From positions 1 to 64,000 of the forward strand of contig JAHBTJ010000030.1 in assembly GCA_019638595.1 (NCBI GenBank): a stretch of 64,000 bases of DNA, written 5' to 3'. The translations under genes were made by a program, and so were the position numbers. The stretch is from Chitinophagaceae bacterium. Lineage in GTDB: Bacteria; Bacteroidota; Bacteroidia; Chitinophagales; Chitinophagaceae. The notes beneath the pieces are model-generated. The model was given only the letters and a program-made list of their open reading frames with translations, had not been told where the DNA came from and did not search any database. Position 1 is the first letter of the stretch. Every line of letters begins with the position of its first letter. Below, one piece after another: positions 45,565 to 64,000 of the stretch.

Positions 45565-46434
45565 TTAAAACGCCAGCTTGTTCATATAGTCGGCGCATGC
45601 TTTAGCGCTTTTAAGAGGCGTAGAGCCCGTGTATTTTTCCTGCTCAACGATGTAATAATAAACACCTTTCTTTTTTGCCACCTGTAAAATTTTCCCGTAA
45701 TCTATACTGCCTTTTCCCAGGTCGCAGGAGGCATCCTGGTTATCGGGTCCGGCGCCTTTTTCCCTGTCTTTAACATGGCAAAGCTTGAACCTGTAGGGAT
45801 ATTTTTCAAGCCATGCAACAGGATCTTCGCCTGCAGTAACTACCCAATACATGTCCATTTCAAAATCTACGGTATCGGGGTTGGTATTTTCCATCAGTAC
45901 ATCCTGCGGGTAAACGCCATCAACCGGCTTGAACGTGTATCCATGATTGTGGTACGCGAACTTCAGTCCGTTTTGCTTGCAGATGTCGCCGCAGGCGTTA
46001 AATTTCTCAGCGAATTTTTTATAGTCGTCCAGCGTTTTTTGCGCTCCTATATATGGGCAAATCAGGTACTTCATTCCTATTGCACCTGCTTCTCCCGCCT
46101 TTTTCTCAAAGTCTTTATTAATATCGCAATGACTGGAAACAATGCTCATTCCAAGCTGGTCCATGTATTTTTTAAATCCTGTATTGCCCAGTCCCCAGAA
46201 CATGCCCTGCGCTCCTTCAAAGCTTTCTACTTGATTATAACCGAACCCGGCAACCTGTTTCAATATTCCTTTGGGGTCTTTAGGAAGATCATCCCGCAGG
46301 GAATACAATTGCAGCCCGAAATTTTTTGTAATGATGTTATTACCGGCAAGAGCTTCCAGGCTCTTTGCAGACAAAGCTATACCCGTGCCGAACAACGCAC
46401 CTGCTTTTAAAAACTGTCTTCTGTTATACGTCAT
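45565..46434 (-). CDS. Tat-exported sugar-phosphate-isomerase-like TIM-barrel protein
   Basis: A 289-residue protein of the xylose isomerase-like / AP-endonuclease-2 superfamily (PF01261). The ATG at 46434 directly precedes a twin-arginine signal (NRRQFLKAGALFGTG); a longer frame upstream is only repeat sequence. Metal-site residues are visible in QVESFEG, FAYHNHGYTF, DTVDFEMDMYWV, CHVKDREKG and YYIVEQEKY. No phosphate is expected in the periplasm, so a keto-glycoside lyase, hydratase or epimerase role is more likely than sugar-phosphate isomerisation (inference). It is the last gene of the minus operon with the GMC oxidoreductase and its small subunit. Confidence 0.85.
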   Translation of the reverse strand: MTYNRRQFLKAGALFGTGIALSAKSLEALAGNNIITKNFGLQLYSLRDDLPKDPKGILKQVAGFGYNQVESFEGAQGMFWGLGNTGFKKYMDQLGMSIVSSHCDINKDFEKKAGEAGAIGMKYLICPYIGAQKTLDDYKKFAEKFNACGDICKQNGLKFAYHNHGYTFKPVDGVYPQDVLMENTNPDTVDFEMDMYWVVTAGEDPVAWLEKYPYRFKLCHVKDREKGAGPDNQDASCDLGKGSIDYGKILQVAKKKGVYYYIVEQEKYTGSTPLKSAKACADYMNKLAF

Positions 46435-46461
46435 GGTTATTTTATTAAATTGAATTACCTG

Positions 46462-46512
46462 GTGACCAGGTTGCAAGTTACAAGTTTCAGGTTGCAAGTT
46501 TCAAGGTTCTCA
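46462..46512. repeat. GTT/CAAG-type degenerate repeat tract
   Basis: Between the TIM-barrel gene and the small-subunit gene. It holds a 7-bp palindrome (ACCTGGT G ACCAGGT) and repeated words GTTGCAAGTT and GTTACAAGTTTCAGGTT (46477-46493). A 16/17 inverted match lies at 51470-51486, on the other side of the operon pair. Confidence 0.55.
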
Positions 46513-46573
46513 CCTATAAACTCCAAACTATTAACTATAAACCCCAGCCCTGCCACTTCTTCTTATCACTATA

Positions 46574-47155
46574 TTATGTAGCCCATGCCCTGTCGCCTTT
46601 TTTGTAGGGAATGCAGCCTTCGTATTTTCCGGGTACCTGCATGTAACGCAATGTTTGTGTAGCACCCGGTTCCGAAGTAAAAAAACCCAGCAGGGTCAGT
46701 TCCTTCATCATGCGGAAATAATGCCGGGGCTCATTTTCCTTTTTGGTTTTCATGTATTCTTTGGCTTCCTTGTCTATTTCCGTCAGCAGCTCTTTTTGCT
46801 GCCCGGCATCCGCTTCTACAAATGGTTTGCTGAACTTTTGCCGGCTGGCCGCGTTTAATGATTTCATGCCTTCCAAAAAAACTTTTTGATCGTTTTCCTC
46901 GTAGCAATCGGTTACCATTACGGTCATGAAGGCGCCTACTTTAGCGGCTTTTGCACCCGGCGTATCGGTTGCGGGAATAATGGTTTCTGCAATAGCGTCC
47001 AGGTAAGTGATATCATCGGCATTGAACAACCCGGCAGTGCCGGCATCTGCCTTTTTATCTGCACCGGGCTTACAACCTTCCAGAAAAGCGCCGGCGCCTA
47101 CAACGGTACCCCCCAGTATCAGGGCAACTCTGGAAACGGCTTCGCGTCTGTTCAT
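46574..47155 (-). CDS. Gluconate 2-dehydrogenase subunit 3-family protein (small subunit)
   Basis: A 193-residue protein. The signal has twin arginines at 3-4 and then ALILGGTVVGAGAFLEGC with a lipobox-like Cys28, so it is probably Tat-exported and lipid-anchored. The mature part has the subunit 3 motifs NADDITYLDAIAETIIPATDTPGAKAA (read here as a block) and FFTSEPGATQTLRY, with the ending VPGKYEGCIPYKKGDRAW. In characterised sugar dehydrogenases this subunit escorts the flavoprotein through the Tat system. It follows the GMC gene by 44 bases, as expected for a complex, and precedes a Tat-exported TIM-barrel gene. Confidence 0.9.
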   Translation of the reverse strand: MNRREAVSRVALILGGTVVGAGAFLEGCKPGADKKADAGTAGLFNADDITYLDAIAETIIPATDTPGAKAAKVGAFMTVMVTDCYEENDQKVFLEGMKSLNAASRQKFSKPFVEADAGQQKELLTEIDKEAKEYMKTKKENEPRHYFRMMKELTLLGFFTSEPGATQTLRYMQVPGKYEGCIPYKKGDRAWAT

Positions 47156-47199
47156 ACATTGAGTTTTATGTTAAAAGAAAGATCGGTTTTATGGATCCG

Positions 47200-49017
47200 T
47201 TATAAATTTCCTTTTTTCAATTCACTTACGGCATGGTCTGCCGCCCTTGCGGTGAGCGCCATATAGGTAAGCGATGGATTTACGCAGGCGGCGGATGTCA
47301 TACAGGCGCCGTCGGTAACAAATACATTCTGTGCGTCCCATACCTGGTTCCATTTATTCAATACCGAAGTTTTGGGATCTTTTCCCATTCTCGCGGTACC
47401 CATTTCATGAATACCTCTTCCCAGGGTGCCATCGCCGTTCCAGCTATTTACTTTTTTTACCCCCGCGGCTTCCAGCATTTCCTGGGCGTCACTCTGCATG
47501 TCTTTGCGCATCTTCTTTTCATTTTCCTTGTGCTCTACGTCAAAAGCCAGTACAGGTAAGCCCCATTTATCCAGCCGCTGTCTGCCGTTTTTGTCGGGTA
47601 CCGGGCGTGAACCCAAATCCTTTCCTGTAACCGGGTCTTTAAATGGTTCCGTTTTGTCGGAGTAGGTATTTTTATCAAGGAATATTTTGTTTTCATGATT
47701 GGGTAATACTTCACCAAAGCCGCCGATCGACATGGTCCAGATACCCGGTTCAACAAGCGCTTCTTTTAAGTCAATGCCCAGGGCTACTTCTTCCGCAGAA
47801 CGACTCCAGCCCTGCCGCGAGCCGCCACCCTGGTAGCCGAAACCACGCAGGTAATCTCTTTTATCGCCATTAATGTTCTGGTACCGGGGAATGTAAATGC
47901 CGTTGGCCCTCCTTCCAAAATAGTACTGGTTTTCGTATCCCTCAACAATACCTGAAGCGCCCACGCCAAGGTGATGATCCATTACATTGTGCCCCAGTTC
48001 GCCGCTGCTGCTGCCCAGTCCATCGGGCCAAATATCCGTAGCGGAATTAAACAGTATCCAGGTGCTGTTTAAGGCCGATGCGTTCAGGAAAACTATCTTC
48101 GACTTATATACATAAGTTTTGTTGTTTTCAGCGTCCAGCACTTCAACGCCGGTGGCTTTTTTAGTGTTTTTATCGTACAATACTTTTGTAACAATAGACC
48201 AGGGGCGTAGTGTAAGATTGCCTGTTTTTCTTGCAGCAGGTAATGTGGACGACTGAGTGCTGAAATAAGCGCCATAGGGGCAACCCAGCCAGCACTTGTT
48301 CCTGAACTGGCAGTTGGCCCTGCCCTGTTCGTTATAAGGTACGGTAAGATTAGCCGTACGGCCGATGATCATGGTTCTTTTTCCGGCATATTTTTCTTTT
48401 ATGCGTGCGGCAACATCCTTTTCCACGCAGGTCATTTCCATGGGAGGTAAAAACTGTCCGTCCGGTAACTGCGACAAGCCTTCTTTTGATCCGCTGATGC
48501 CCGCAAAACGTTCTGCGTGGTCATACCAGGGAGCAATATCTTTATAGCGGATCGGCCAGTCTGCTCCAATGCCTTCTTTCGCATTGGCTTCAAAATCAAG
48601 ATCGCTGAAACGATAGCTTTGTCTTCCCCAGGTTAAAGAACGTCCGCCTACGTGATAGCCCCTGAACCAGTCGAATCTTTTGATTTCGGTATAAGGACTG
48701 TCCTTATCGCTGCACCAATAATCGAGGTTGGTTTCATTTAAAGGATAGTCGCGCTTTAATACCGGGTAATCTTTAATCATCTGCTGGGTACGGCCACCCC
48801 TGTGCGGATACTCCCAGGGATCTTTGTTGGCGTTCAAATAGCCCGATTTGTGCTCAATGTGTCTTCCCCTTTCGAGCATTAATACTTTCAATCCCTTTTC
48901 TGTGAGTTCTTTGGCGGCCCATCCGCCGCTGATGCCCGAACCCACTACAATCGCATCATAGGTCATGCTTTCATCGGCCTTGCCATTGATGTTTACATTA
49001 CTGCTATCGCCCGGCAT
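47200..49017 (-). CDS. GMC-family FAD oxidoreductase, probable glucoside 3-dehydrogenase catalytic subunit
   Basis: A 605-residue flavoprotein. The FAD-binding motif is VVGSGISGGWAAKEL at about 24-38, with LERG at 49-52. The active-site His is in GIHEMGTARMG, and the second catalytic position is Asn in ACVNPSLT near the C terminus. Three cysteines, Cys236, Cys242 and Cys246, form C-x5-C-x3-C, the spacing I recall for the 3Fe-4S cluster of Burkholderia FAD glucose dehydrogenase. It has no signal peptide of its own and is expected to cross the membrane bound to the Tat-exported small subunit encoded next. Relatives oxidise C3 of glucosides. The genes around it (DUF1080, Gfo/Idh, TIM barrels, cytochrome c) support that role over simple glucose oxidation. 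Confidence 0.87.
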   Translation of the reverse strand: MPGDSSNVNINGKADESMTYDAIVVGSGISGGWAAKELTEKGLKVLMLERGRHIEHKSGYLNANKDPWEYPHRGGRTQQMIKDYPVLKRDYPLNETNLDYWCSDKDSPYTEIKRFDWFRGYHVGGRSLTWGRQSYRFSDLDFEANAKEGIGADWPIRYKDIAPWYDHAERFAGISGSKEGLSQLPDGQFLPPMEMTCVEKDVAARIKEKYAGKRTMIIGRTANLTVPYNEQGRANCQFRNKCWLGCPYGAYFSTQSSTLPAARKTGNLTLRPWSIVTKVLYDKNTKKATGVEVLDAENNKTYVYKSKIVFLNASALNSTWILFNSATDIWPDGLGSSSGELGHNVMDHHLGVGASGIVEGYENQYYFGRRANGIYIPRYQNINGDKRDYLRGFGYQGGGSRQGWSRSAEEVALGIDLKEALVEPGIWTMSIGGFGEVLPNHENKIFLDKNTYSDKTEPFKDPVTGKDLGSRPVPDKNGRQRLDKWGLPVLAFDVEHKENEKKMRKDMQSDAQEMLEAAGVKKVNSWNGDGTLGRGIHEMGTARMGKDPKTSVLNKWNQVWDAQNVFVTDGACMTSAACVNPSLTYMALTARAADHAVSELKKGNL

Positions 49018-49118
49018 AATTGTTTGTATTAAATTATGAATGAAAAATGTTTGTTTATGAAAAGGAGCTGAAAAAATGTTCAGCTATCCTGCAGATGGTA
49101 TTCTTACCGCTATTTTCT

Positions 49119-50033
49119 TTACACATCGCAAATCTGTACGGCTTTTTCAAGCGACGCCAGTTGTCCGGCCGCGTCTTTGGGTGTTGGAATAAATTCCTGG
49201 GCTACATATCCTTTAAAGTTCACCTCTGTAATAGCTTTCATGATAGCGGGGTAATATAGTTCCTGCGAATCGTCTATCTCCCTTCTGCCGGGTACGCCGC
49301 CCGTATGATAATGTGAAATATAAGGATGGTATTCGCGGATAGTCCTGATCACATCCCCCTCATCAATCTGCATGTGGTAAATATCGTACAGCAGCTTAAA
49401 GTTTTCTGAACCCACGCGTTTTGCAAGTTCCACGCCCCAGGCTGTTTTATCGCACTGGTAATCTTTATGGTCTATTTTGCTGTTCAGCAGCTCCATTACC
49501 AGCACCACCTTGTGTTTTTCCGCAAGCCCTATAATTTTTTTCAAACCCTCCGCGCAGTTATTCCATCCTTCCTCATCGCTTAATTTTCTTTTGCTTCCGC
49601 TAAAGCATATCAATTGTTTATATCCCGCTTTGGCCACCACCGGTATCATTTCAGAATAATTCTTTACCAGCTTTTCATGAAAAGCCTTTTCATTAAACCC
49701 GTCTTCGAGGTTTATTTCGGCGCCATTACACATGGAAGAGTAGAGCCCGTATTTTTTTAGAACAGGCCAGTCTTTAGGACCCACCAGGTCAATGGCGGAA
49801 ATACCTATTTTTTTTGCTGCCGCACAAAGCTCCTCTAAAGGAATGCTGCCGTAGCACCACCTGCATACGGAATGATTGATATTTCCTTTCATAGTATGAT
49901 CTGAATATTCTTTGCTTTTTGTTGAAGATGAAAAACCGGCAAGTGCCGAAGGGGCTGCTCCCACAGCAAGCGATCCGAGTACAATATTTTTAATAGCGCG
50001 CCGGCGCGGCTGCGATGAAGATGAAGTGGACAT
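49119..50033 (-). CDS. Tat-exported hydroxypyruvate-isomerase-like TIM-barrel protein
   Basis: A 304-residue protein with an N-terminal twin-arginine-like signal (PRRRAIKNIVLGSLAVGAAP). The TIM barrel begins near residue 50 (NHSVCRWCYGSIPLEELC). Metal-site residues are visible in KVVLVMELLNSKIDHKDY, YDIYHMQIDEGDVI, YHTGGVPGRREIDDSQE and YVAQEFIP. It resembles hydroxypyruvate isomerase, but its export argues against that central-metabolism role. It is the first gene of the minus operon, 101 bases before the GMC gene, and is divergent from the Gfo/Idh gene across 216 bases. Confidence 0.85.
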   Translation of the reverse strand: MSTSSSSQPRRRAIKNIVLGSLAVGAAPSALAGFSSSTKSKEYSDHTMKGNINHSVCRWCYGSIPLEELCAAAKKIGISAIDLVGPKDWPVLKKYGLYSSMCNGAEINLEDGFNEKAFHEKLVKNYSEMIPVVAKAGYKQLICFSGSKRKLSDEEGWNNCAEGLKKIIGLAEKHKVVLVMELLNSKIDHKDYQCDKTAWGVELAKRVGSENFKLLYDIYHMQIDEGDVIRTIREYHPYISHYHTGGVPGRREIDDSQELYYPAIMKAITEVNFKGYVAQEFIPTPKDAAGQLASLEKAVQICDV

Positions 50034-50249
50034 AGCTTACAATAAAGTGGTTAAGTTAGGGAATGTTTTACAAATGCATCCTTTTAAATTGTTAAGGCAA
50101 CGGATAGAATGTATAGCTACCCGCGTGGTAGTATAAAGCAATGCCTTCCGTTACTAAAATGCATGATAAAAAACAGGCGGGCGGTTAGTGTAAATGTTTT
50201 ATTTTTAAACCCGCTTCTGGAATTTTTTAACTACGTTAATACTTTTTTC

Positions 50250-51407
50250 ATGAACAGAAAACTAAGAATGGGAATGATTGGTGGGGGCAAAGACGCCTTC
50301 ATCGGCGCCGTTCATCGTATTGCCGCTAATATGGATGGACTTATTGAATTATCGTGCGCAGCGCTCAGCTCAAGGCCGGATGTTGCCAAGGAATCGGCGA
50401 AAGCTTTGTTCCTGCCCGATAGTAAGGCGTATACAAGCTACGAAGAAATGATAGAAACCGAAAGCAAGCTTCCGGCGGATGAAAGAATGGATTTTGTTTC
50501 GATCGTTACACCCAATTTTGCCCACTTTGGACCGGCAATGCTGGCTTTGGAAAAGGGTTTTCATGTAATGATTGAAAAACCTATGACGTTCACGCTGGAA
50601 GAAGCAAAGCAATTACAGAAAAAAGTGGAGGAAACCGGTTTATTGCTGGGACTTACGCATACGTATGCGGGTTACCCTATGGTAAAGCAGGCTAAGCAAA
50701 TGGTAAGGGAAGGCGCTTTGGGTAAGATCAGGAAGATATGGGTGGAATACCCGCAGGGATGGCTGAGCAACCTTACCGAACAAACAGGAAATGTGCAGGC
50801 CGCCTGGAGAACCGATCCCAAAAGATCGGGAAAAGCCGGCTGTATGGGAGATATAGGCACGCATGCCGCACATCTTGCAGAATATATATCGGGGTTAAAA
50901 ATTTCAAAGCTTTGTGCTGATTTGAATATTATGGTGCCCGGGCGCCCGCTGGATGACGATGGGAACGTGCTGCTGCGGTTCAACAACGGAGCTGCAGGCG
51001 TATTAATGGCTTCGCAGGTTGCTGCGGGAGAAGAAAACGCGCTGAAAATAAGAATATATGGTGAGAAGGGCGGACTGGAATGGGCGCAACACGAACCCAA
51101 TACGCTGATCGTAAAATGGCTGGATAAACCCACGGAAATTTATCGTGCAGGCGGGGGATACCTCGGCGGCTTTGCCAAACACAATACCCGTACGCCGGGA
51201 GGGCATCCCGAGGGATACCTGGAGGCTTTTGCCAATATTTACCGCAACTTCGCGCTTACGTTGTCGGCAAAACTGGATGGTATCCAACCCACCCCGGAAA
51301 TGCTCGACTTCCCAACCGTTCAGGAAGGAGTAAGGGGCATGGCGTTCATTGACCTGGTGGTAGCCAGCAGTGCCAGCACCGAAAAATGGACCGAGTTCGA
51401 GGTATAA
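50250..51407 (+). CDS. Gfo/Idh/MocA-family NAD(P)-dependent oxidoreductase
   Basis: A 385-residue cytosolic enzyme. The ATG at 50250 (MNRKLRMGMIGGGK) places the Rossmann motif GMIGGGKDAFIG at the expected N-terminal position; the longer upstream frame lacks support. The family EKP motif is at 109-111 (MIEKPMTFT). A further family block, GCMGDIGTHAAHLAEYI, contains the conserved D and H residues near the substrate. Members oxidise or reduce sugar carbons, often C3 of glucosides. It heads the plus operon of the divergent locus and would recycle or convert 3-keto sugars in the cytosol. Confidence 0.9.
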   Translation: MNRKLRMGMIGGGKDAFIGAVHRIAANMDGLIELSCAALSSRPDVAKESAKALFLPDSKAYTSYEEMIETESKLPADERMDFVSIVTPNFAHFGPAMLALEKGFHVMIEKPMTFTLEEAKQLQKKVEETGLLLGLTHTYAGYPMVKQAKQMVREGALGKIRKIWVEYPQGWLSNLTEQTGNVQAAWRTDPKRSGKAGCMGDIGTHAAHLAEYISGLKISKLCADLNIMVPGRPLDDDGNVLLRFNNGAAGVLMASQVAAGEENALKIRIYGEKGGLEWAQHEPNTLIVKWLDKPTEIYRAGGGYLGGFAKHNTRTPGGHPEGYLEAFANIYRNFALTLSAKLDGIQPTPEMLDFPTVQEGVRGMAFIDLVVASSASTEKWTEFEV

Positions 51408-51409
51408 AG

Positions 51410-51540
51410 TAAGGTATAGGGGGGAAGGTGTAGGGTGTAAGGTAGAAAGTGATAAGTGATAAGATGTAAAACCTGAAACCTGTAACCTGCATTTCTTTAG
51501 CCCTATACCCTAAACCTTATGCCTTCCACTAATTAATAAT
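51410..51540. repeat. AAGGTGTAGGG-type degenerate repeat tract with inverted halves
   Basis: Between the Gfo/Idh and TIM-barrel genes. The left part has repeated AAGGTATAGGG and AAGGTGTAGGG words; the right part has CCCTATACCCTAAACC, their reverse complement in kind. Between them, 51470-51486 matches in inverted form the tract at 46477-46493 at 16 of 17 positions. It is non-coding. Confidence 0.55.
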
Positions 51541-51562
51541 CTTTTTAAAAAATCTTACAATC

Positions 51563-52618
51563 ATGACAAATATCCAGGGGCCTGCCATATTCCTGGCCCA
51601 GTTTTTAGGAGATCAAGCACCCTTTAACAGCTTAAAGTCTGTTTGCGAATGGGCGGCCGGTTTAGGTTATAAAGGCGTTCAGCTTCCTACATGGGATCCG
51701 CGTATTATTGACGTTCAAAAAGCGGCAGAAAGTAAAACCTATGCCGATGAAATAAAAGGAACAGTAAATGCTGCCGGGCTGCAAATAACCGAGCTGGCTT
51801 CTCATATTATTGGCCAACTGGTAGCAGTACACCCGGCCTATAACGAGCTTTTTGACGGATTTGCTCCCGAAGCGTACCGTAATAATCCAACAGCCCGTAC
51901 CGAATGGGCGGTACAGCATCTTAAAAATGCCGCTAAAGCATCTAAAAACCTGGGGTTGAACGCGCATGGCACTTTCAGCGGATCCCTGCTGTGGCATACG
52001 GTATACCCCTGGCCCCAGCGCCCTGCCGGACTGGTAGAAACCGGTTTTACGGAACTGGCAAAACGCTGGTTGCCCATATTGAACGCGTTTGACGAACAGG
52101 GGATAGACCTTTGCTACGAAATTCACCCGGGAGAAGATCTGCATGATGGCATTACTTATGAAATGTTCCTCGAAAAAGTGAATAATCATACAAGAGCCTG
52201 TTTGTTGTACGACCCAAGCCATTTTGTGCTGCAATGCCTGAACTACCTGGATTATATAGACAATTACCACGAGCGCATAAGAATGTTCCATGTAAAAGAC
52301 GCTGAATTTAATCCTACCGGCAAGCAGGGAGTATATGGCGGCTACCAGGGCTGGGTAGAAAGGGCGGGACGTTTCCGTTCGCTGGGCGACGGGCAGGTTG
52401 ATTTCAAATCTGTTTTCAGCAAACTTGCGGCATATAACTATAAGGGATGGGCGGTGCTTGAATGGGAGTGTGCTATAAAACATCCCGAGGCCGGGGCGGC
52501 AGAAGGGGCTCCTTTCATCAAAAACCACATTATACGCGTAACCGAGCGTGCATTCGATGATTTTGCCGGAACAGGCAGCGATGAAAAATTTAATCGTAAA
52601 GTTTTAGGGCTGGAGTAA
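51563..52618 (+). CDS. Cytosolic sugar-phosphate-isomerase/epimerase-like TIM-barrel protein
   Basis: A 351-residue protein without a signal peptide, starting at ATG 51563. The PF01261 fold shows GYKGVQLPTWDPRIID, ELASHIIGQLVAVHP, NAHGTFSGSLLW, DLCYEIHPGEDLHDG, LLYDPSHFVLQ, MFHVKDAEFNPTGKQG and WAVLEWECAIKH, which include the usual Glu/Asp/His metal ligands. It differs from the other two TIM-barrel proteins of the locus in being cytosolic and longer. Its position right after the Gfo/Idh gene suggests it acts on the intracellular sugar product, as lyase, epimerase or isomerase (inference). Confidence 0.87.
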   Translation: MTNIQGPAIFLAQFLGDQAPFNSLKSVCEWAAGLGYKGVQLPTWDPRIIDVQKAAESKTYADEIKGTVNAAGLQITELASHIIGQLVAVHPAYNELFDGFAPEAYRNNPTARTEWAVQHLKNAAKASKNLGLNAHGTFSGSLLWHTVYPWPQRPAGLVETGFTELAKRWLPILNAFDEQGIDLCYEIHPGEDLHDGITYEMFLEKVNNHTRACLLYDPSHFVLQCLNYLDYIDNYHERIRMFHVKDAEFNPTGKQGVYGGYQGWVERAGRFRSLGDGQVDFKSVFSKLAAYNYKGWAVLEWECAIKHPEAGAAEGAPFIKNHIIRVTERAFDDFAGTGSDEKFNRKVLGLE

Positions 52619-52659
52619 GTTTTCTTCGGATATTTACCCCCTAAAATTTTGACAATACG

Positions 52660-53112
52660 ATGACATTAAAAAAGCTTAGTATGAAGAAACTGGCAGCAGC
52701 AGCTATGGTGCTTACTTTTTTTTATGCCTGTGGAAGCGGTCCGCAGGAGGCTAAAGCACCTATCAGTGTTAGTGTGAATCCCCAAATTGGAGCCAAAGCT
52801 CCTTCCGTGGCGGCTACTACGGGCAGCGGCGATGGAGCGCAGAAGCCTGCGGCGGCAGCTCCCGCAAAAGATGGTAAAGCGTTGATAGCGGCTTCCGACT
52901 GCCGCGCCTGCCACAGCGATAAAGATAAACTGGTAGGCCCCGCCTATGCGGAAGTAGCCCAGAAATATAAAGAAAAGGATATCCCCGCATTGGCAAAGAA
53001 AATAATTGATGGTGGCTCAGGAGTGTGGGGACCTATACCCATGGCGCCGCATGCCGCGTTAAGCACAGAAGATGCCGAAGCAATGGTAAAATACATTCTC
53101 ACCATTAAATAG
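52660..53112 (+). CDS. c-type cytochrome lipoprotein
   Basis: A 150-residue protein with a lipoprotein signal ending at Cys24 (AAAAMVLTFFYAC). ATG 52660 is used, but ATG 52681 (MKKLAAAA) is equally possible. An Ala/Pro-rich linker (residues 50-70) leads to a class I cytochrome c domain with the haem motif CRACH at 81-85 and a likely axial Met128 (IPMAPH). It would accept electrons from the GMC flavoprotein outside the inner membrane and pass them to the respiratory chain. In known glucoside 3-dehydrogenases a cytochrome is the third subunit; here it is on the opposite, divergent operon. It lies 7 bases before the DUF1080 gene. Confidence 0.92.
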   Translation: MTLKKLSMKKLAAAAMVLTFFYACGSGPQEAKAPISVSVNPQIGAKAPSVAATTGSGDGAQKPAAAAPAKDGKALIAASDCRACHSDKDKLVGPAYAEVAQKYKEKDIPALAKKIIDGGSGVWGPIPMAPHAALSTEDAEAMVKYILTIK

Positions 53113-53119
53113 GCATATA

Positions 53120-53854
53120 ATGAAAACAGAAAGACATATCATAGCCGCGCTGTTCCTGTTCGCGATGACCATCAGTTATAACGCAGAGGCGCAAAAGCGG
53201 GGTGCTGACAATACACTTACCAAAAAGGAAAAGAAAAACGGCTGGCAGTTGTTGTTTGACGGATCTACCACCAATGGCTGGCATTCGTTTAACAAGCCGG
53301 GTTTAGGCGCTGCCTGGGAGGCCAGCGAGGGAACATTCCATCTTGGAAAGAAAGCCGATAAAGACAGTGGGGGAGATGCTGTAACCGCTGAAGAGTATGG
53401 TGACTTTCACCTGAAGCTTGAATGGAAAATATCACAAAATGGTAACAGCGGGGTCATGTTCCTGGTGAAAGAAGATCCTACATACAAATATGCTTATTAT
53501 ACCGGTCCTGAAATGCAGGTGCTGGATAACAACGGGCATCCGGATGCTAAAATCCAAAAACACCGTGCGGGTGATCTGTACGATCTTATCACCAGCGTAC
53601 CGGAAACCGTAAAGCCTTATGGCGAATGGAACAGCATTGAAATAAAGCTGGAAAAAGGAAAGCTGGACTTTTGGCAGAATGGTGTGAACGTGGTATCAAC
53701 CACTTTGTGGAACGATAACTGGAATACATTGGTAGCCGGCAGCAAGTTCAAGTCGCTGGAGGATTTCGCGAAGTTTAAAACCGGGCGTATCGTATTGCAG
53801 GATCATGGAGATGAAGTATGGTACCGGAATATCAAGATCAAAAAACTGGATTAA
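53120..53854 (+). CDS. DUF1080 protein (3-keto-disaccharide hydrolase family), secreted
   Basis: A 244-residue protein with a Sec signal (IIAALFLFAMTISYNAEA). The mature domain is the concanavalin-like DUF1080 fold: NGWQLLFDGSTTNGWHSF, EYGDFHLKLEWKISQNGNSG, YKYAYYTGPEMQVLDNNGHP, KPYGEWNSIEIKLEKGKL and GRIVLQDHGDEVWYRNIKIK. The family is annotated as 3-keto-disaccharide hydrolase and often occurs with GMC and Gfo/Idh genes. It would cleave the 3-keto-glycoside made by the dehydrogenase in the periplasm. It is the last gene of the plus operon and is followed by a terminator. Confidence 0.9.
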   Translation: MKTERHIIAALFLFAMTISYNAEAQKRGADNTLTKKEKKNGWQLLFDGSTTNGWHSFNKPGLGAAWEASEGTFHLGKKADKDSGGDAVTAEEYGDFHLKLEWKISQNGNSGVMFLVKEDPTYKYAYYTGPEMQVLDNNGHPDAKIQKHRAGDLYDLITSVPETVKPYGEWNSIEIKLEKGKLDFWQNGVNVVSTTLWNDNWNTLVAGSKFKSLEDFAKFKTGRIVLQDHGDEVWYRNIKIKKLD

Positions 53855-53882
53855 CGCTATCCATATTTGCTTTCAAATTTTT

Positions 53883-53911
53883 AAAGCCGGTGTATAGTAT
53901 GCACCGGCTTT
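53883..53911 (+). terminator. Terminator of the plus-strand 3-keto-sugar operon
   Basis: A 10-bp stem, AAAGCCGGTG (53883-53892) with CACCGGCTTT (53902-53911), a 9-nt loop, then TTATTTT. It lies 28 bases after the stop of the DUF1080 gene. Confidence 0.85.
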
Positions 53912-53994
53912 TATTTTGGCAGATGTTAATGATATTGGAACAGGAAAAGGTCTTTTATAGTAAAACCGCATTTTGTACCGTTGTAAATTGCATA

Positions 53995-54435
53995 ATGCCC
54001 CGCATAGAACTAAACACAAATATTCATGCACCCATACAGGTTTGTTTTGATCTTTCTCGTAGCGCGGAGCTGCACATGATCTCTACCCGGCATACCCGCG
54101 AAACAGTTGTTAAAGGAAGAAGCAAAGGCTTATTTGAGAAAAATGATATTGTTACCTGGCGCGCCAAACACTTCGGCATATACCGGCAACTTGAAATGGA
54201 AATATCGGGAATGGATTTCCCTTTCAGCTTTGAAGACAGGATGGTAAAAGGGATTTTTAAAAGCATTACTCATCAGCATATATTTTCGGAAAAAGACGGA
54301 ATTACTACAATGAAAGACATCTTTGTTTATGAAGAATTTGTACCCCTGGTTGAGCGGGCAATCCATGAAAATCTATCGCCCGGCGCTATTAAAAAAGCTA
54401 TTAAAAACTGGCAGCCGGACAATATGCGGGTATAA
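53995..54435 (+). CDS. SRPBCC-family protein
   Basis: A 146-residue protein. The ATG at 53995 gives MPRIELNTNIHAPIQVCFDL, the usual opening of SRPBCC (START/Bet v 1-like) ligand-binding proteins; the longer upstream frame crosses the terminator. Further family blocks are GLFEKNDIVTWRAKHFGIYR, FPFSFEDRMVKGIF and FVYEEFVPLVERAIHENL. It has no signal peptide, so it is cytosolic. The ligand is unknown. It is separated from the 3-keto operon by a terminator and followed by a non-coding repeat tract. Confidence 0.85.
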   Translation: MPRIELNTNIHAPIQVCFDLSRSAELHMISTRHTRETVVKGRSKGLFEKNDIVTWRAKHFGIYRQLEMEISGMDFPFSFEDRMVKGIFKSITHQHIFSEKDGITTMKDIFVYEEFVPLVERAIHENLSPGAIKKAIKNWQPDNMRV

Positions 54436-54892: not shown

Positions 54893-55606
54893 TTAACGCC
54901 ATTGCATCAGTGCCGCATTAAGCGCCTCTTCCACCCGGCGGCGGGGCTTATAAAAATAGCTCATACCATGTCCGGGCAGCATTACATCTGTATCAATTGC
55001 AGAAAATCGCAAAAGAGATTCCATGTATTTCTTTTTATCAAAATCAATAGAGCCGCTCCAGCCGAAATCTCCTGCTAAAAGTGTACCTATTACATCGCCG
55101 CTGATAACAACCCGTTTATCATCCCAGGTAAATAAGTACGCGGTGCATCCCATGCTATGACCAGGCAAATGCATGGCTGTAAAGCTGGTGCCACATAAGT
55201 TAAAAACTTCCCCGTCTGTAATAAGCCTGTCAACCGTTACAGGAGTAAATGTTTTATGATACAAATATCCGCAGCAACGTTCATCGCCCGAAGCTACCGC
55301 GTCGGCGGTTTCCCTGATTGAAATAAGCTGAACGCCTTTTTTCTTTAAAAGGTGAGCGCCTCCCGCATGATCGTAATGCGGATGTGTTAACACACAATAA
55401 CGGATATCGTCAGGCGAAAGTTGCCAGTACAACATATTGGCGAATATCTGGTCCATCGTGTCGCCGCAGCCGCAGTCGAACATGATCAATCCCTGGCCTG
55501 TTTTAATTATATAGGAGTTGGCATCGTTCCATAAGGCGCCGGGCTCATCAAAAGTAAGCCCGTTGATATCGCCCCCCACCTGGTAAATATTCCTGAGCAA
55601 CTGCAT
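54893..55606 (-). CDS. MBL-fold metallo-hydrolase
   Basis: A 237-residue soluble enzyme with a binuclear metal site. The motif THPHYDHAGG gives His75, His77, Asp79 and His80. Other ligands are in AMHLPGHSMGCTAYL, VISGDVIGTLLAGD and MLPGHGMSY. The spacing resembles glyoxalase-II and lactonase-type members more than beta-lactamases. No signal peptide is present. It has an unusual GDERCCGYLYHKTF insert with two adjacent Cys. The substrate is unknown. It is a single gene on the minus strand, with a -7 element at 55660-55667. Confidence 0.87.
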   Translation of the reverse strand: MQLLRNIYQVGGDINGLTFDEPGALWNDANSYIIKTGQGLIMFDCGCGDTMDQIFANMLYWQLSPDDIRYCVLTHPHYDHAGGAHLLKKKGVQLISIRETADAVASGDERCCGYLYHKTFTPVTVDRLITDGEVFNLCGTSFTAMHLPGHSMGCTAYLFTWDDKRVVISGDVIGTLLAGDFGWSGSIDFDKKKYMESLLRFSAIDTDVMLPGHGMSYFYKPRRRVEEALNAALMQWR

Positions 55607-60747: not shown

Positions 60748-63700
60748 CTAACTATTTCCGGCTCTCCACTCCTGCGGCGTCGCGCCATATTCCTGTTTGA
60801 ACACACGTGCAAAATACCCGGGATCATTATACCCGCAGTCCAATGCCACTGATGCTATACTATTGGAAGCGTCCTGTAATAATTCCTTTGCTTTTTTAAG
60901 CCGGATCATCCGGATGAATTTATTGGGAGAATACCCGGTGAGCGCTTCCAGCTTGCGATGCAGTTGCGAATGACTCATAAAAATAAGCTTACTCAACTTC
61001 TCTACTGTAAAATCTGTGTCCGTTAAATTTTGCTCCACCGCTTCTCTTACCCTTTTTACAAAAGCATCTTCTAAAGCATGATCGCTTATTTCAACAGGAA
61101 CAATAACCGGTTTTACAGGTGTTTCTTCATATATACCTGCCTTTTTAAGATAATACTGTTGCAGGTTTTTACGCATCTCCAGTAATTTCTTTATCCTTAC
61201 CAGCAACTCTTCTTTGTTAAATGGCTTTTCCAAATATGCATCGGCGCCCTGTTGCAGGCCTTCTATCTTACTGCTCATATCAGCTTTGGCGGTGAGCATA
61301 ATTACAGGAATATGACTGGTGCTTTCATTGTGGCGCAATTTGTTCACCAGCTCAAAGCCGTCTACAAAAGGCATCATCACATCGGTGAGTATAAGATCCG
61401 GGATCATTTCCGCAGCAATGTCAAAACCTTCCCTGCCATCTTTGGCTACGGCAAGCCTGTAATCAGGAAGGCAGGATGCCGTATAGGCTACTACATCAGC
61501 ATTATCCTCCACCAGTAATAACAGCGGTGCACTGGTATTTTTTTCTTCCTTATCCGGTATCCATTCGCTGAAATCCGGCTTTGCAACAACAGGAGAAGAT
61601 GACTGATTTTTCAGATCATACGTCGTTGACTCTTCCGCTGCTGCTACTCTTTTCAGCGGAAGCGATACCGTAAATTCGCTGCCCTTAAGGGCTCCGGCCG
61701 GCGGGCTTTTTACCACTATCTCTCCATCCATTAATTTAACCAGCTCTTTTGTGAGTGCCAGCCCGATACCTGTGCCTTCTGTTTTGCGGGTATGACTGTT
61801 ATCCAATTGATAAAACCTGTCGAAAACGTATTGCAACTGATCTCCGGGTATGCCAATGCCGGTATCTTTCACTTTAATTATTAAAGTAGCATTATCACTA
61901 TTGCCGGATGGCACATTTTCCATTACACTGATATAAATATTCCCCTTTTCCGGGGTGAACTTAATGGCATTGGAGAGCAGGTTGGAAATGATCTGTCTTA
62001 TTTTCTCCCTGTCAAATTCCATATACAAAGCATCAATATCCGTTAAAAGATGTAGCTGCTTTTGCTGGCTTTCTGCCAGTGAATGAAAGGATTCAACTAT
62101 ATAACGCAGAAAATGTATAACATCTCCATGCGATAACTGCAATGGCATTTTACCCGTCTCAAGTTTGGAGAGGTCAAGGAGTTGGTTTACCAGGTTCAGC
62201 AGGCTTCGTCCATTACGTACGATCATATCCATACGGGTTTCAAACTGCTCGGTTGGTTTTTCTGCAACCTGCTGCGCCATGCCCAGTATAACAGTAAGGG
62301 GGGTACGAAATTCGTGGGTTATATTAGTGTATAATTGTGTTTTAACAGTATCTAATTCTTTCACTCTTTTGGCTTCCAACTGTTCAAAGCTTAACTGCGA
62401 TTGCAGCTTTGCTTTATTTACCTTAAACCGGAGATAAGCGTGTATAGCCAATGCGATCAGTGAAGCATATATCATGTATGCCCACCAGGTTCGCCACCAG
62501 GGAGGTAGTACACGTATTTTTAATTCGGCGGTTTTATCACTCCATATGCCCTGGCTATTGCTGCCCTGCACCTTAAAAGTATAGTTGCCCGATGGAAGGT
62601 GGAGATAAGTAGCCGTTCGTCTTGTGCCGCTTTCTACCCATTCCTTGTCAATGCCGGCCAGTTGATACCGGTATTTGTTTTGTGTGGGCGCTGTAAAATC
62701 AAGCGAAGAAAACTCAAGGGTGAGCACATCCTGCAAATGACTGAGTGTAATGGATGCTGCTTGCTCAATCGTTTCATGCAGCACACCTGTTTTATCGCCG
62801 GGGGCTACTGCTTTATTCCCAATTTGTATGGCGGTGATATACACATTGGGCGAATAACTGCCGGACAATACTTTTTTCGGATCAAAAATATTGATACCGT
62901 TCACTCCTCCGAACGCAAGATCACCATTGGATAGCGCCGCCAGCGCGTTGGTATTGAATTCGTCTGCCTGCAAACCGTCGCTTGTACTGAACACCCTGAA
63001 TACCGGTGAGGAATTGTTTGTTTCTTTTGCTGCCATCATACAGAATATTCCACGGTTGGTGCTTCCCCATATATTACCGGCCTTATCAGCCAGTATTCCA
63101 TATACCACATCATTGGGCAATCCCTGTTGAGTAGTGTAATGAATAAATTTTCCGGTTGATTTTTGCATACGGTTGAGCCCGCCACCCTTGGTACATATCC
63201 ATAAATAATCATTATTAACAGGATCGTCCATAAACCAGGAAACATAATTATAACTGAGGGAATTACTGTTGCCCGGAATATTTTTAAACCATTTTACGCC
63301 CGGCAACGATGTATCGTTCGTAAACTCCAGTCTTGCAAAACCATGCTCAGTGCCCAGCCAGAAAATGCCCTGCCCGTCTTCGTAAAACGCGTTGGTTTGT
63401 GTGAGCGCCGTTGTGCCGGTATATTGCTCTATATCTATTACAAACTTTGAAAGCTTGCCGGTGACAGGATCAACTCTTGCCAGCGTACCATTAGCGCCAC
63501 AAACCCATACCCGGCGCCTGCTGTCTTCTATTAAGGGCGGGAGTTGCTCCGTAGGAGTTGTATTGGCCGGTTCATCGTAGGTAGCAACTAATTTCATATC
63601 ACCAGTGTACCTGAACATTTTCTTTTGCCCCCAGTTCCAATAAAGCCAGTAGTCGCCGTTTTTCGTTTGCAATACATTTGTATAAGCAAGGCCCCCTGTA

Positions 63701-64000
63701 ATAAAAGGTTCCACCGGGCTCACGCTTTCTTCTCCTGCCGGGGTTAATAATTTTGCCGTCCTCCACCCCTGCACATACACCCTGTCATTATTCCAGGTTG
63801 TTATCCGCTGTATGCTCATGTTGGGCAATGCAGGATGAAAACGATTGTTACTGATACGGTATTTGTAAATGCCGTGTCCCATGGTGCCCACCCATAACAC
63901 ACCCGACCGGTCCAGCAACAGGCATTTAACATTCTGATCTTTCACATCGGTTTTAAGATTGCGGGCATATACATCATTGGTACTATTCCCCGCTCTTATA
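60748..64000 (-). CDS. Hybrid two-component sensor/regulator (propeller, histidine kinase, receiver, AraC), N terminus outside the window
   Basis: About 1084 codons are visible and the frame stays open to the right edge, so the N terminus is missing. The order is: propeller repeats of the two-component-regulator type (GVLWVGTMGHGIYKYR, GNIWGSTNRGIFCM), a Y_Y_Y domain (FSSLDFTAPTQNKYRYQLAG), a membrane helix (AYMIYASLIALAIHAYLRF), HisKA with THEFRTPLTVILG, HATPase with ISNLLSNAIKF and DTGIGIPGDQL, a receiver domain with the phosphoacceptor Asp in LILTDVMMPFVDG, and a C-terminal AraC domain (SHSQLHRKLEALTGYSPNKF, YNDPGYFARVFKQEYG). Such regulators sense oligosaccharides in the periplasm and activate a nearby glycan locus. 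Its target is probably beyond the right edge, or could be one of the sugar genes here; the sequence does not decide. Confidence 0.92.
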   Translation of the reverse strand, partial: IRAGNSTNDVYARNLKTDVKDQNVKCLLLDRSGVLWVGTMGHGIYKYRISNNRFHPALPNMSIQRITTWNNDRVYVQGWRTAKLLTPAGEESVSPVEPFITGGLAYTNVLQTKNGDYWLYWNWGQKKMFRYTGDMKLVATYDEPANTTPTEQLPPLIEDSRRRVWVCGANGTLARVDPVTGKLSKFVIDIEQYTGTTALTQTNAFYEDGQGIFWLGTEHGFARLEFTNDTSLPGVKWFKNIPGNSNSLSYNYVSWFMDDPVNNDYLWICTKGGGLNRMQKSTGKFIHYTTQQGLPNDVVYGILADKAGNIWGSTNRGIFCMMAAKETNNSSPVFRVFSTSDGLQADEFNTNALAALSNGDLAFGGVNGINIFDPKKVLSGSYSPNVYITAIQIGNKAVAPGDKTGVLHETIEQAASITLSHLQDVLTLEFSSLDFTAPTQNKYRYQLAGIDKEWVESGTRRTATYLHLPSGNYTFKVQGSNSQGIWSDKTAELKIRVLPPWWRTWWAYMIYASLIALAIHAYLRFKVNKAKLQSQLSFEQLEAKRVKELDTVKTQLYTNITHEFRTPLTVILGMAQQVAEKPTEQFETRMDMIVRNGRSLLNLVNQLLDLSKLETGKMPLQLSHGDVIHFLRYIVESFHSLAESQQKQLHLLTDIDALYMEFDREKIRQIISNLLSNAIKFTPEKGNIYISVMENVPSGNSDNATLIIKVKDTGIGIPGDQLQYVFDRFYQLDNSHTRKTEGTGIGLALTKELVKLMDGEIVVKSPPAGALKGSEFTVSLPLKRVAAAEESTTYDLKNQSSSPVVAKPDFSEWIPDKEEKNTSAPLLLLVEDNADVVAYTASCLPDYRLAVAKDGREGFDIAAEMIPDLILTDVMMPFVDGFELVNKLRHNESTSHIPVIMLTAKADMSSKIEGLQQGADAYLEKPFNKEELLVRIKKLLEMRKNLQQYYLKKAGIYEETPVKPVIVPVEISDHALEDAFVKRVREAVEQNLTDTDFTVEKLSKLIFMSHSQLHRKLEALTGYSPNKFIRMIRLKKAKELLQDASNSIASVALDCGYNDPGYFARVFKQEYGATPQEWRAGNS

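Follow-up and report, generated by a model that had tools for sequence, protein, structure and literature searches.

RESULTS

A divergent eight-gene locus

We analyzed a 64,000-nucleotide stretch of DNA from a Chitinophagaceae bacterium (GenBank assembly GCA_019638595.1, contig JAHBTJ010000030.1, positions 1 to 64,000; referred to as the window) and focused on a locus at 45565-53854, in which eight intact open reading frames form two divergent groups. These encode the parts of a GMC-type dehydrogenase (flavoprotein, subunit 3, and cytochrome c), a Gfo/Idh oxidoreductase, a DUF1080 protein, and three TIM-barrel proteins that we designate TIM-A, TIM-B, and TIM-C (Table 1). Here we consider how these proteins may act together on glycosides and what TIM-B may contribute.

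All eight proteins score above the curated Pfam cut-offs for their named families. The AP_endonuc_2 model (cut-off, 31.1 bits) matches TIM-A, TIM-B, and TIM-C at 48, 87, and 124 bits, the N and C domains of the GMC flavoprotein match at 58 and 76 bits, the Gfo/Idh domains match at 53 to 97 bits, and the DUF1080 protein belongs to the 3-keto-disaccharide hydrolase family PF06439 (161 bits; cut-off, 26.8). The open reading frames, strands, and Pfam families agree with a first-pass annotation of this DNA, which had described a divergent eight-gene locus of these families and the annotation of DUF1080 as a 3-keto-disaccharide hydrolase.

Table 1. Genes and features of the locus, in window coordinates
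Feature	Position	Strand	Assignment and supporting evidence
TIM-A	45565..46434	-	AP_endonuc_2; Tat-type start; predicted 3-keto-glucoside beta-eliminase; open frame extends to TTG at 46497
Subunit 3 of GMC dehydrogenase	46574..47155	-	PF13618, 138 bits; Tat and lipobox-like start
GMC flavoprotein	47200..49017	-	PF00732 and PF05199; predicted glycoside 3-dehydrogenase large subunit
TIM-B	49119..50033	-	PF01261, 87 bits; Tat-type start; epimerase/isomerase-like TIM barrel
Divergent intergenic region	50034..50249		Gap between the two start codons; presumably holds both promoters
Gfo/Idh oxidoreductase	50250..51407	+	PF01408, PF22725, PF02894; signal-less; predicted cytoplasmic 3-keto-glucose reductase
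TIM-C	51563..52618	+	PDB 8ro4, 583 bits; signal-less; 2-hydroxy-3-keto-glucal hydratase by homology
Cytochrome c	52660..53112	+	PF00034, 38 bits; single heme, one CRACH motif; lipobox-like start; predicted electron acceptor of the dehydrogenase
DUF1080 (3keto-disac_hyd) protein	53120..53854	+	PF06439, 161 bits; Sec-type start

Two starts were moved because the chosen ATG codons fit the orthologues. That of TIM-A is most likely the ATG at 46434 (MTYNRRQFLK), replacing the TTG at 46497, and that of the Gfo/Idh protein is most likely the ATG at 50250 (MNRK), replacing 50109; most Gfo/Idh orthologues have 385 to 388 amino acids. The Gfo/Idh query used in the homology and neighborhood searches began at base 50256, two codons past this likely start.

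Signals were called by visual reading plus a hydropathy scan, without a signal-peptide program. By this reading, TIM-A, TIM-B, and subunit 3 carry starts resembling twin-arginine translocation (Tat) signals, that of subunit 3 also being lipobox-like; the cytochrome c has a lipobox-like start and the DUF1080 protein a Sec-like one, and no signal was seen at the N termini of the GMC flavoprotein, the Gfo/Idh protein, or TIM-C. A signal-less GMC subunit can be coexported with a Tat-bearing small subunit. The predicted export of two of the three TIM barrels, TIM-A and TIM-B, matches the first-pass annotation. The Bacteroidota -7 element, whose consensus we take to be TANNTTTG, was not found in the intergenic gap.

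Assignment of the cleavage and hydration enzymes

Homology firmly predicts that TIM-C is a 2-hydroxy-3-keto-glucal hydratase. In a phmmer search of the PDB, its residues 2 to 350 aligned with residues 2 to 349 of 8ro4, an AtHYD-type structure deposited under that name, a close similarity over the full length. An orthologue 70% identical to TIM-C adjoins a gene for an OGE-like protein on a Rhizobium plasmid.

The best PDB matches of TIM-A are 8tcd, 8tcs, and 8tct (125 to 134 bits), which, like 8tda, we take to be entries of Nasseri et al. 2024 (Nature). TIM-A also matches 8bvk at 61 bits; we take this entry to be AtOGE, because it has 259 residues and residue numbers in the AtOGE paper run up to Gln259. 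In AtOGE, His132, Asp163, His189, and a weakly bound Glu233 hold the metal, and His134 is catalytic (PMC10628242). Aligned through the rhizobial OGE-like protein rather than AtOGE itself, TIM-A has H183, D215, H241, and E285 (numbered in its 310-amino-acid frame) as the metal ligands and H185 as the catalytic histidine, the site residues of an AtOGE-type beta-eliminase. Relative to the AtOGE numbering, the rhizobial protein is shifted by 7 at its HNH, Asp, and His positions and by 6 at its Glu. All five residues are kept in 11 of 11 aligned orthologues and do not vary across the 9 sequences of a broader set, to which the rhizobial protein belongs. The latter has no signal-like start, unlike TIM-A, which we predict to be an exported 3-keto-O-glucoside beta-eliminase.

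In an NCBIfam search, the top model for TIM-A, TIM-C, and the rhizobial OGE- and HYD-like proteins was myo-inosose dehydratase IolE. No NCBIfam cut-off was reached by these proteins, by TIM-B, or by the orthologues compared.

The DUF1080 protein matches PDB entries 4jqt (169 bits) and 8tda (149 bits) and, judging by its family, may cleave other linkages by elimination or hydrolysis.

Assignment of the oxidoreductases

Glycoside 3-dehydrogenases of the LacABC type consist of a GMC flavoprotein, a Gluconate_2-dh3 subunit, and a cytochrome c that are encoded together. The window locus has this composition, as judged by component families rather than by LacABC sequences, and we infer that the three proteins oxidize glycosides at C3. 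The best PDB relative of the flavoprotein is a fructose dehydrogenase large subunit (118 bits).

The Gfo/Idh protein matches PDB entry 3v5n at 372 bits. We also considered a glycoside 3-dehydrogenase of the BT_2158 type and rejected it at 37 bits against the 750-bit cut-off of NCBIfam BT_2158_fam. Because the protein is remote from this oxidase model and shares 48% identity with the Gfo/Idh next to the OGE- and HYD-like rhizobial pair, its natural role is more plausibly that of a 3-keto-glucose reductase.

TIM-B resembles epimerases and isomerases

The highest-ranking NCBIfam models for TIM-B are hydroxypyruvate isomerase (TIGR03234, 91.5 bits), psicose epimerase (61.6 bits), and IolO (58.9 bits). 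With Hymenobacter and Xanthomonas orthologues included, hydroxypyruvate or 2-oxo-tetronate isomerase leads, followed by psicose epimerase and IolO among others. A plain hydroxypyruvate isomerase was rejected, the score of TIM-B lying far below the 353.45-bit cut-off, and its PDB matches reach 50 bits at best.

Six residues of TIM-B (E181, D217, H220, H243, R250, and E280) are invariant among 26 sequences, namely the window protein and 25 orthologues of 43 to 71% identity, and again in a second set of 36 that includes the window protein. Within the ketose 3-epimerase/hydroxypyruvate isomerase superfamily, Glu, Asp, His, and Glu columns hold the metal and move a proton beside a ketone. TIM-B residues E181, D217, H243, and E280 align with these metal-site columns in the psicose-epimerase-type structures 3vnk, 3vni, and 2hk0.

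We also weighed whether TIM-B could be a second 3-keto-glycoside lyase for other substrates, such as alpha-linked or C-glycosides, so that the locus would hold two TIM-barrel lyases and no isomerase. TIM-B belongs to the same TIM-barrel superfamily as the lyases and adjoins TIM-A-type genes in many relatives; moreover, in C-glycoside eliminases a Glu replaces the metal-binding His of AtOGE (PMC10628242), and TIM-B has Glu181 at that place. However, the position of the AtOGE catalytic His134, two past the first metal ligand, is occupied by Leu183 in TIM-B and by Leu or Phe throughout both alignments (26 and 36 sequences); an AtOGE-type lyase was rejected on this ground, and the NCBIfam ranking prefers isomerases and epimerases. 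We regard a second lyase as unlikely; the sequence of TIM-B is more suggestive of an epimerase or isomerase than of a lyase or hydratase.

The cassette is conserved among Bacteroidota

A search for TIM-B in 198 genomes of the order, at a threshold of E 1e-40, found it in 55, as a single copy each, including 30 of 35 genomes of the host family. We compared 54 neighborhoods, excluding that of the window; 29 of them are from the host family. A GMC gene lies near TIM-B in 41 of 54 (27 of 29 in the host family) and is absent nearby in 13. TIM-B, GMC, and TIM-C genes occur together with a Gfo/Idh gene of at least 60% identity in 25 of 29 host-family neighborhoods, and the full set of eight, when TIM-A is required to be at least 45% identical, in 11 of 29 (12 of 54 overall), locus L069 of the host family falling just short. 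Because 25 of 29 family neighborhoods keep these four genes and 11 of 29 keep all eight, the arrangement is not due to chance.

The 80 best TIM-B loci of a contig scan, a set that favors close relatives of TIM-B, came from Chitinophagaceae, Pedobacter, Mucilaginibacter, Flavobacterium, Hymenobacter, Pontibacter, and others, with metagenome-assembled genomes of Chitinophagaceae (80% identity) and Niastella (74%) at the top. Of these loci, 57 are longer than 20 kb; GMC, subunit 3, TIM-C, and Gfo/Idh genes are each present in 55, cytochrome and TIM-A-type genes in 54, a nucleoside-permease-type transporter in 48, and DUF1080 in 41. A crude motif search found an open frame with HNH plus Asp in 46 of the 57 and none in 11. 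Of the eight proteins, TIM-A shows the lowest conservation in the Bacteroidota set (median identity of 37%, versus 66% for TIM-B, 67% for GMC, and 73% for TIM-C). Pedobacter and Flavobacterium loci have the cassette genes on one strand.

Two types of major facilitator superfamily (MFS) transporter, one of them of the nucleoside-permease family, lie beside TIM-B in relatives, forming clusters in 15 and 9 loci. No MFS transporter was found at the window locus. Its genome encodes more distant homologues on other contigs, at 45% and 42% identity for one type and 47%, with one in-frame stop, for the other.

Other arrangements were also seen. Loci L043 and L052 have tandem arrays of five GMC genes behind TIM-B (44 to 74% identical to the window GMC) and look as if duplication of the dehydrogenase had widened the substrate range. 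L078 and L085 hold isolated TIM-B genes in a common seven-gene neighborhood, without other cassette genes.

TIM-B co-occurs with predicted glycoside oxidases

We counted co-occurrence in genomes of the order and in a draw of 345 Bacteroidota genomes of at least 95% completeness, taking the genomes as drawn and ignoring shared ancestry. In the order, TIM-B occurs with GMC in 54 of 55 genomes and with TIM-C in 53 of 55; it is missing from 8 of 62 genomes with GMC and 7 of 60 with TIM-C, and GMC is present in 58 of 60 TIM-C genomes. The co-occurrence of TIM-B and GMC holds even though a second family often has TIM-B in a nonadjacent position. The phylum draw contained 85 genomes with TIM-B, 104 with GMC, and 67 with TIM-C; TIM-B was found with GMC in 81 of 85 and with TIM-C in 59 of 85, and TIM-C with GMC in 67 of 67.

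The four TIM-B genomes without GMC encode BT_2158-like Gfo/Idh proteins that score 888 (above the cut-off), 473, 492, and 496 bits (below it). Twenty comparison genomes, picked among those without GMC and all lacking TIM-B, reach at most 156 bits, and four genomes with both TIM-B and GMC reach 205, 501, 508, and 561 bits. Given these scores and the co-occurrence counts, TIM-B tracks C3 oxidation of glycosides more closely than it tracks hydration. In two GMC-less genomes of a distant Bacteroidota family, TIM-B is directly followed by a TIM-A-type gene of 31 to 32% identity (L184:17106-18996 and L185:942-2796).

Two further explanations were weighed. One is that the GMC complex oxidizes free sugars at another carbon, as fructose or gluconate dehydrogenases do, and that its neighbors take part in inositol-like or keto-acid catabolism. 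This would fit the fructose dehydrogenase as closest GMC relative of solved structure and the resemblance of TIM-A and TIM-C to IolE. Against this, TIM-C is close to 8ro4, the IolE scores fall far under the 290-bit cut-off, the cassette includes DUF1080, and GMC accompanies TIM-C in all of the phylum genomes and nearly all of the order genomes counted above; we consider this explanation very improbable.

The other is that TIM-B is a repair enzyme that returns spontaneously formed 2-keto-glycosides to the 3-keto form by ketol isomerization. Hydroxypyruvate isomerase, the best NCBIfam model of TIM-B, catalyzes a ketol shift of that kind. Such a role would suit the occurrence of TIM-B with different C3 oxidases, and it is not separable by sequence from that of an epimerase. 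A spontaneous shift from the 3-keto to the 2-keto form, with a product that the lyase does not use, has been described for a C-glycoside; in the part of PMC13273386 available, this dead end is documented for C-glycosides only. We judge a repair role to be rather unlikely.

Plasmid-borne copies in other phyla

On plasmids of the Pseudomonadota Xanthomonas sacchari, Palleronia, and Paracoccus, TIM-B directly precedes GMC, subunit 3, and DUF1080 genes, and the same stretch carries TIM-C, Gfo/Idh, another isomerase-like gene, and a transporter. Compared with the window, these three copies are 64 to 68% identical in GMC, 61 to 62% in TIM-C, 53 to 57% in TIM-B, and 31 to 45% in Gfo/Idh, and only 24 to 28% in both TIM-A and DUF1080. 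Because the identities differ in this way, we regard the dehydrogenase, the hydratase, and TIM-B as a stable core, whereas the cleaving enzymes diverge or are exchanged. The conservation of TIM-B in these three copies would suit an enzyme acting on a common 3-keto sugar rather than one shaped by a variable aglycone, which also speaks against a second lyase.

Hymenobacter volaticus carries a cassette of the Bacteroidota form on a plasmid. The Rhizobium plasmid stretch (L173:4003-9435) has the OGE-like and HYD-like genes, Gfo/Idh genes, and a sugar ABC transporter. Neither GMC nor TIM-B is annotated there, and its second Gfo/Idh may serve as the oxidase. Several cassette enzymes are labeled sugar phosphate isomerases in the plasmid records of Pseudomonadota, Rhizobium, and Hymenobacter.

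Host genome and surroundings of the locus

The source genome (7.06 Mb in 52 contigs) is rich in oxidative-glycoside chemistry, with greatly expanded families. It has 25 DUF1080 matches, some of them two per frame, and seven GMC genes related to that of the cassette (eleven rows, because some genes were hit in two parts). The BT_2158 Gfo/Idh model gives 38 matches, none of which reaches the cut-off and two of which, on contigs C1 and C7, exceed 500 bits.

Beyond the locus, the plus-strand open frame at 53818-54435 overlaps the end of the DUF1080 gene; its true start may be further downstream, because PF20136 matches only its last 34 residues. A metallo-beta-lactamase-fold protein encoded at 54893-55606 on the minus strand is probably another hydrolase (best NCBIfam model, subclass B3; 109.5 bits against a cut-off of 240). 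The minus strand also encodes, at 60748-63945, a hybrid two-component regulator that unites a sensor propeller, a kinase, a receiver, and an AraC domain in a single protein. SusC and SusD models matched none of 20 further window proteins scanned, a subset of the window's open reading frames.

DISCUSSION

Proposed pathway

We conclude that the locus is quite probably a catabolic cassette for splitting O-glycosides, in which oxidation is followed by elimination, hydration, and reduction and TIM-B is a proposed 3-keto-sugar epimerase or isomerase. Oxidation of the sugar at C3 would take place in the periplasm, through the GMC flavoprotein together with subunit 3 and cytochrome c. TIM-A, as its active-site residues suggest, would then eliminate the aglycone by means of a metal ion and a histidine to give 2-hydroxy-3-keto-glucal, and the DUF1080 protein may provide a parallel elimination, or a hydrolysis, on other linkages. 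The product would be imported by an MFS transporter of the kind encoded in the loci of many relatives. In the cytoplasm, TIM-C would hydrate the glycal, a step that homology strongly supports, and the Gfo/Idh protein would reduce 3-keto-glucose to glucose. Periplasmic TIM-B is proposed to convert C2 or C4 epimers, or the 2-keto isomer, of the 3-keto sugar into the form that the lyase accepts.

More tentatively, we suggest that TIM-B may be the founding member of a family of periplasmic 3-keto-sugar epimerases or isomerases. This extra, fifth step would go with C3 oxidation in Bacteroidota and in some of the Pseudomonadota, regardless of the dehydrogenase (GMC or Gfo/Idh) or lyase used.

Several observations weigh against the proposed pathway. 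The regiochemistry at C3 is not readable from the sequence, and the nearest solved GMC relative oxidizes fructose. TIM-A shares only 28% identity with the OGE-like protein of Rhizobium, and its assignment therefore rests on the active site and not on orthology. The NCBIfam model that fits the Gfo/Idh protein best describes a dehydrogenase, that of levoglucosan (115 bits; cut-off, 650), as it does for the rhizobial Gfo/Idh (98 bits), and in the Xanthomonas copy the neighboring Gfo/Idh has only 31% identity. None of the other cassette genes accompanies TIM-B in 11 of 54 order neighborhoods, ten of them outside the host family; on a Parabacteroides plasmid (L172) TIM-B has no partner within about 8 kb; and in one (L183) of three neighborhoods from GMC-less genomes, TIM-A is not next to it. 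In the phylum draw, 26 of 85 TIM-B genomes lack TIM-C, and TIM-B is missing from 8 of 67 TIM-C and 23 of 104 GMC genomes, so TIM-B is not indispensable.

Relation to the first-pass annotation and significance

The first-pass annotation had read the locus as cleaving glycosides by C3 oxidation followed by elimination or hydrolysis instead of by classical glycosidases. Homology supports this well, through TIM-C, the TIM-A site, and the kinds of dehydrogenase and DUF1080 protein present; the pathway itself, however, has already been published. The suggestion that the three TIM barrels may hold new activities must accordingly be narrowed: the lyase and the hydratase are not new, because they belong to that published pathway (PMC10628242, PMC7676230, PMC9007349), which leaves the epimerase/isomerase-like TIM-B. 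A comparison of gene order had also been proposed, with loci that never keep these families together counting against the reading; the families are kept together both in Bacteroidota loci and on Pseudomonadota plasmids.

The TIM-B reaction is absent from the schemes in the available parts of PMC10628242, PMC9007349, and PMC7676230, and literature searches returned no paper that we recognized as treating TIM-B in a glycoside-oxidation setting; this negative does not extend to the papers of Kastner (Angewandte, 2024), Nasseri (Nature, 2024), and Arellano (2010).

That glycosides can be cleaved by an oxidative, non-hydrolytic route has become known only recently. In Bacteroidota the cassette is common, and Pseudomonadota plasmids carry it as well. 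The analysis singles out TIM-B as one conserved, predictedly exported enzyme of this cassette. If TIM-B is an epimerase, moving a proton at C2 or C4 beside the C3 ketone would let one gluco-specific set of lyase and hydratase consume galactosides and mannosides. The fate of 3-ketogalactose in Caulobacter, which PMC9007349 describes as unknown, could then be explained as well and would be testable with one purified protein.

Comparison with known systems

The window locus is a Bacteroidota copy of a recently described gene set, with TIM-B as the part whose reaction is missing from the schemes compared. For this comparison, we take the flavoenzyme GlycDH of Agrobacterium tumefaciens to be of the GMC family and the lacABC component families to match GMC, subunit 3, and cytochrome c. 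The A. tumefaciens operon encodes GlycDH, AtOGE, AtHYD, and Gfo and is described as having one further oxidoreductase and two isomerase-like genes (PMC10628242). It resembles the window locus, likened without comparison of the GlycDH sequence, in its glycoside dehydrogenase, beta-eliminase TIM barrel, hydratase, and Gfo/Idh reductase, whereas in the window the eliminase is predicted to be exported, TIM-B, DUF1080, and cytochrome c come in addition, and there are three TIM barrels rather than two isomerase-like genes.

The lacABC cluster of Caulobacter crescentus and its Pedobacter counterpart encode a three-component lactose 3-dehydrogenase, a DUF1080 protein, a transporter, a sugar reductase, and two "sugar epimerases"; the epimerases and the reductase matter for growth on lactose, and in the part of the paper available the epimerases are given no reaction (PMC9007349). 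The window shares the dehydrogenase parts, DUF1080, and other genes of the same kinds. The levoglucosan pathway of Bacillus smithii (LgdA/B1/B2/C) likewise proceeds through oxidation, elimination, hydration, and reduction, with two isomerase-annotated proteins performing the elimination and hydration (PMC7676230). Its oxidase is NAD dependent, in contrast to the GMC enzyme of the window, and TIM-B and DUF1080 were not found in the available part of its description (PMC7676230).

TIM-B itself is comparable to D-psicose/D-tagatose 3-epimerases and hydroxypyruvate isomerases in its aligned Glu, Asp, His, and Glu columns and differs from them in its low overall similarity, its Tat-type start, and scores below every NCBIfam cut-off. 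Finally, the 3-keto glycosidase system of gut Bacteroides (Nasseri and colleagues, Nature, 2024) reportedly relies on Gfo/Idh rather than GMC oxidation; TIM-A resembles 8tcd, 8tcs, and 8tct, and the DUF1080 protein resembles 8tda, all of which we take to belong to that system.

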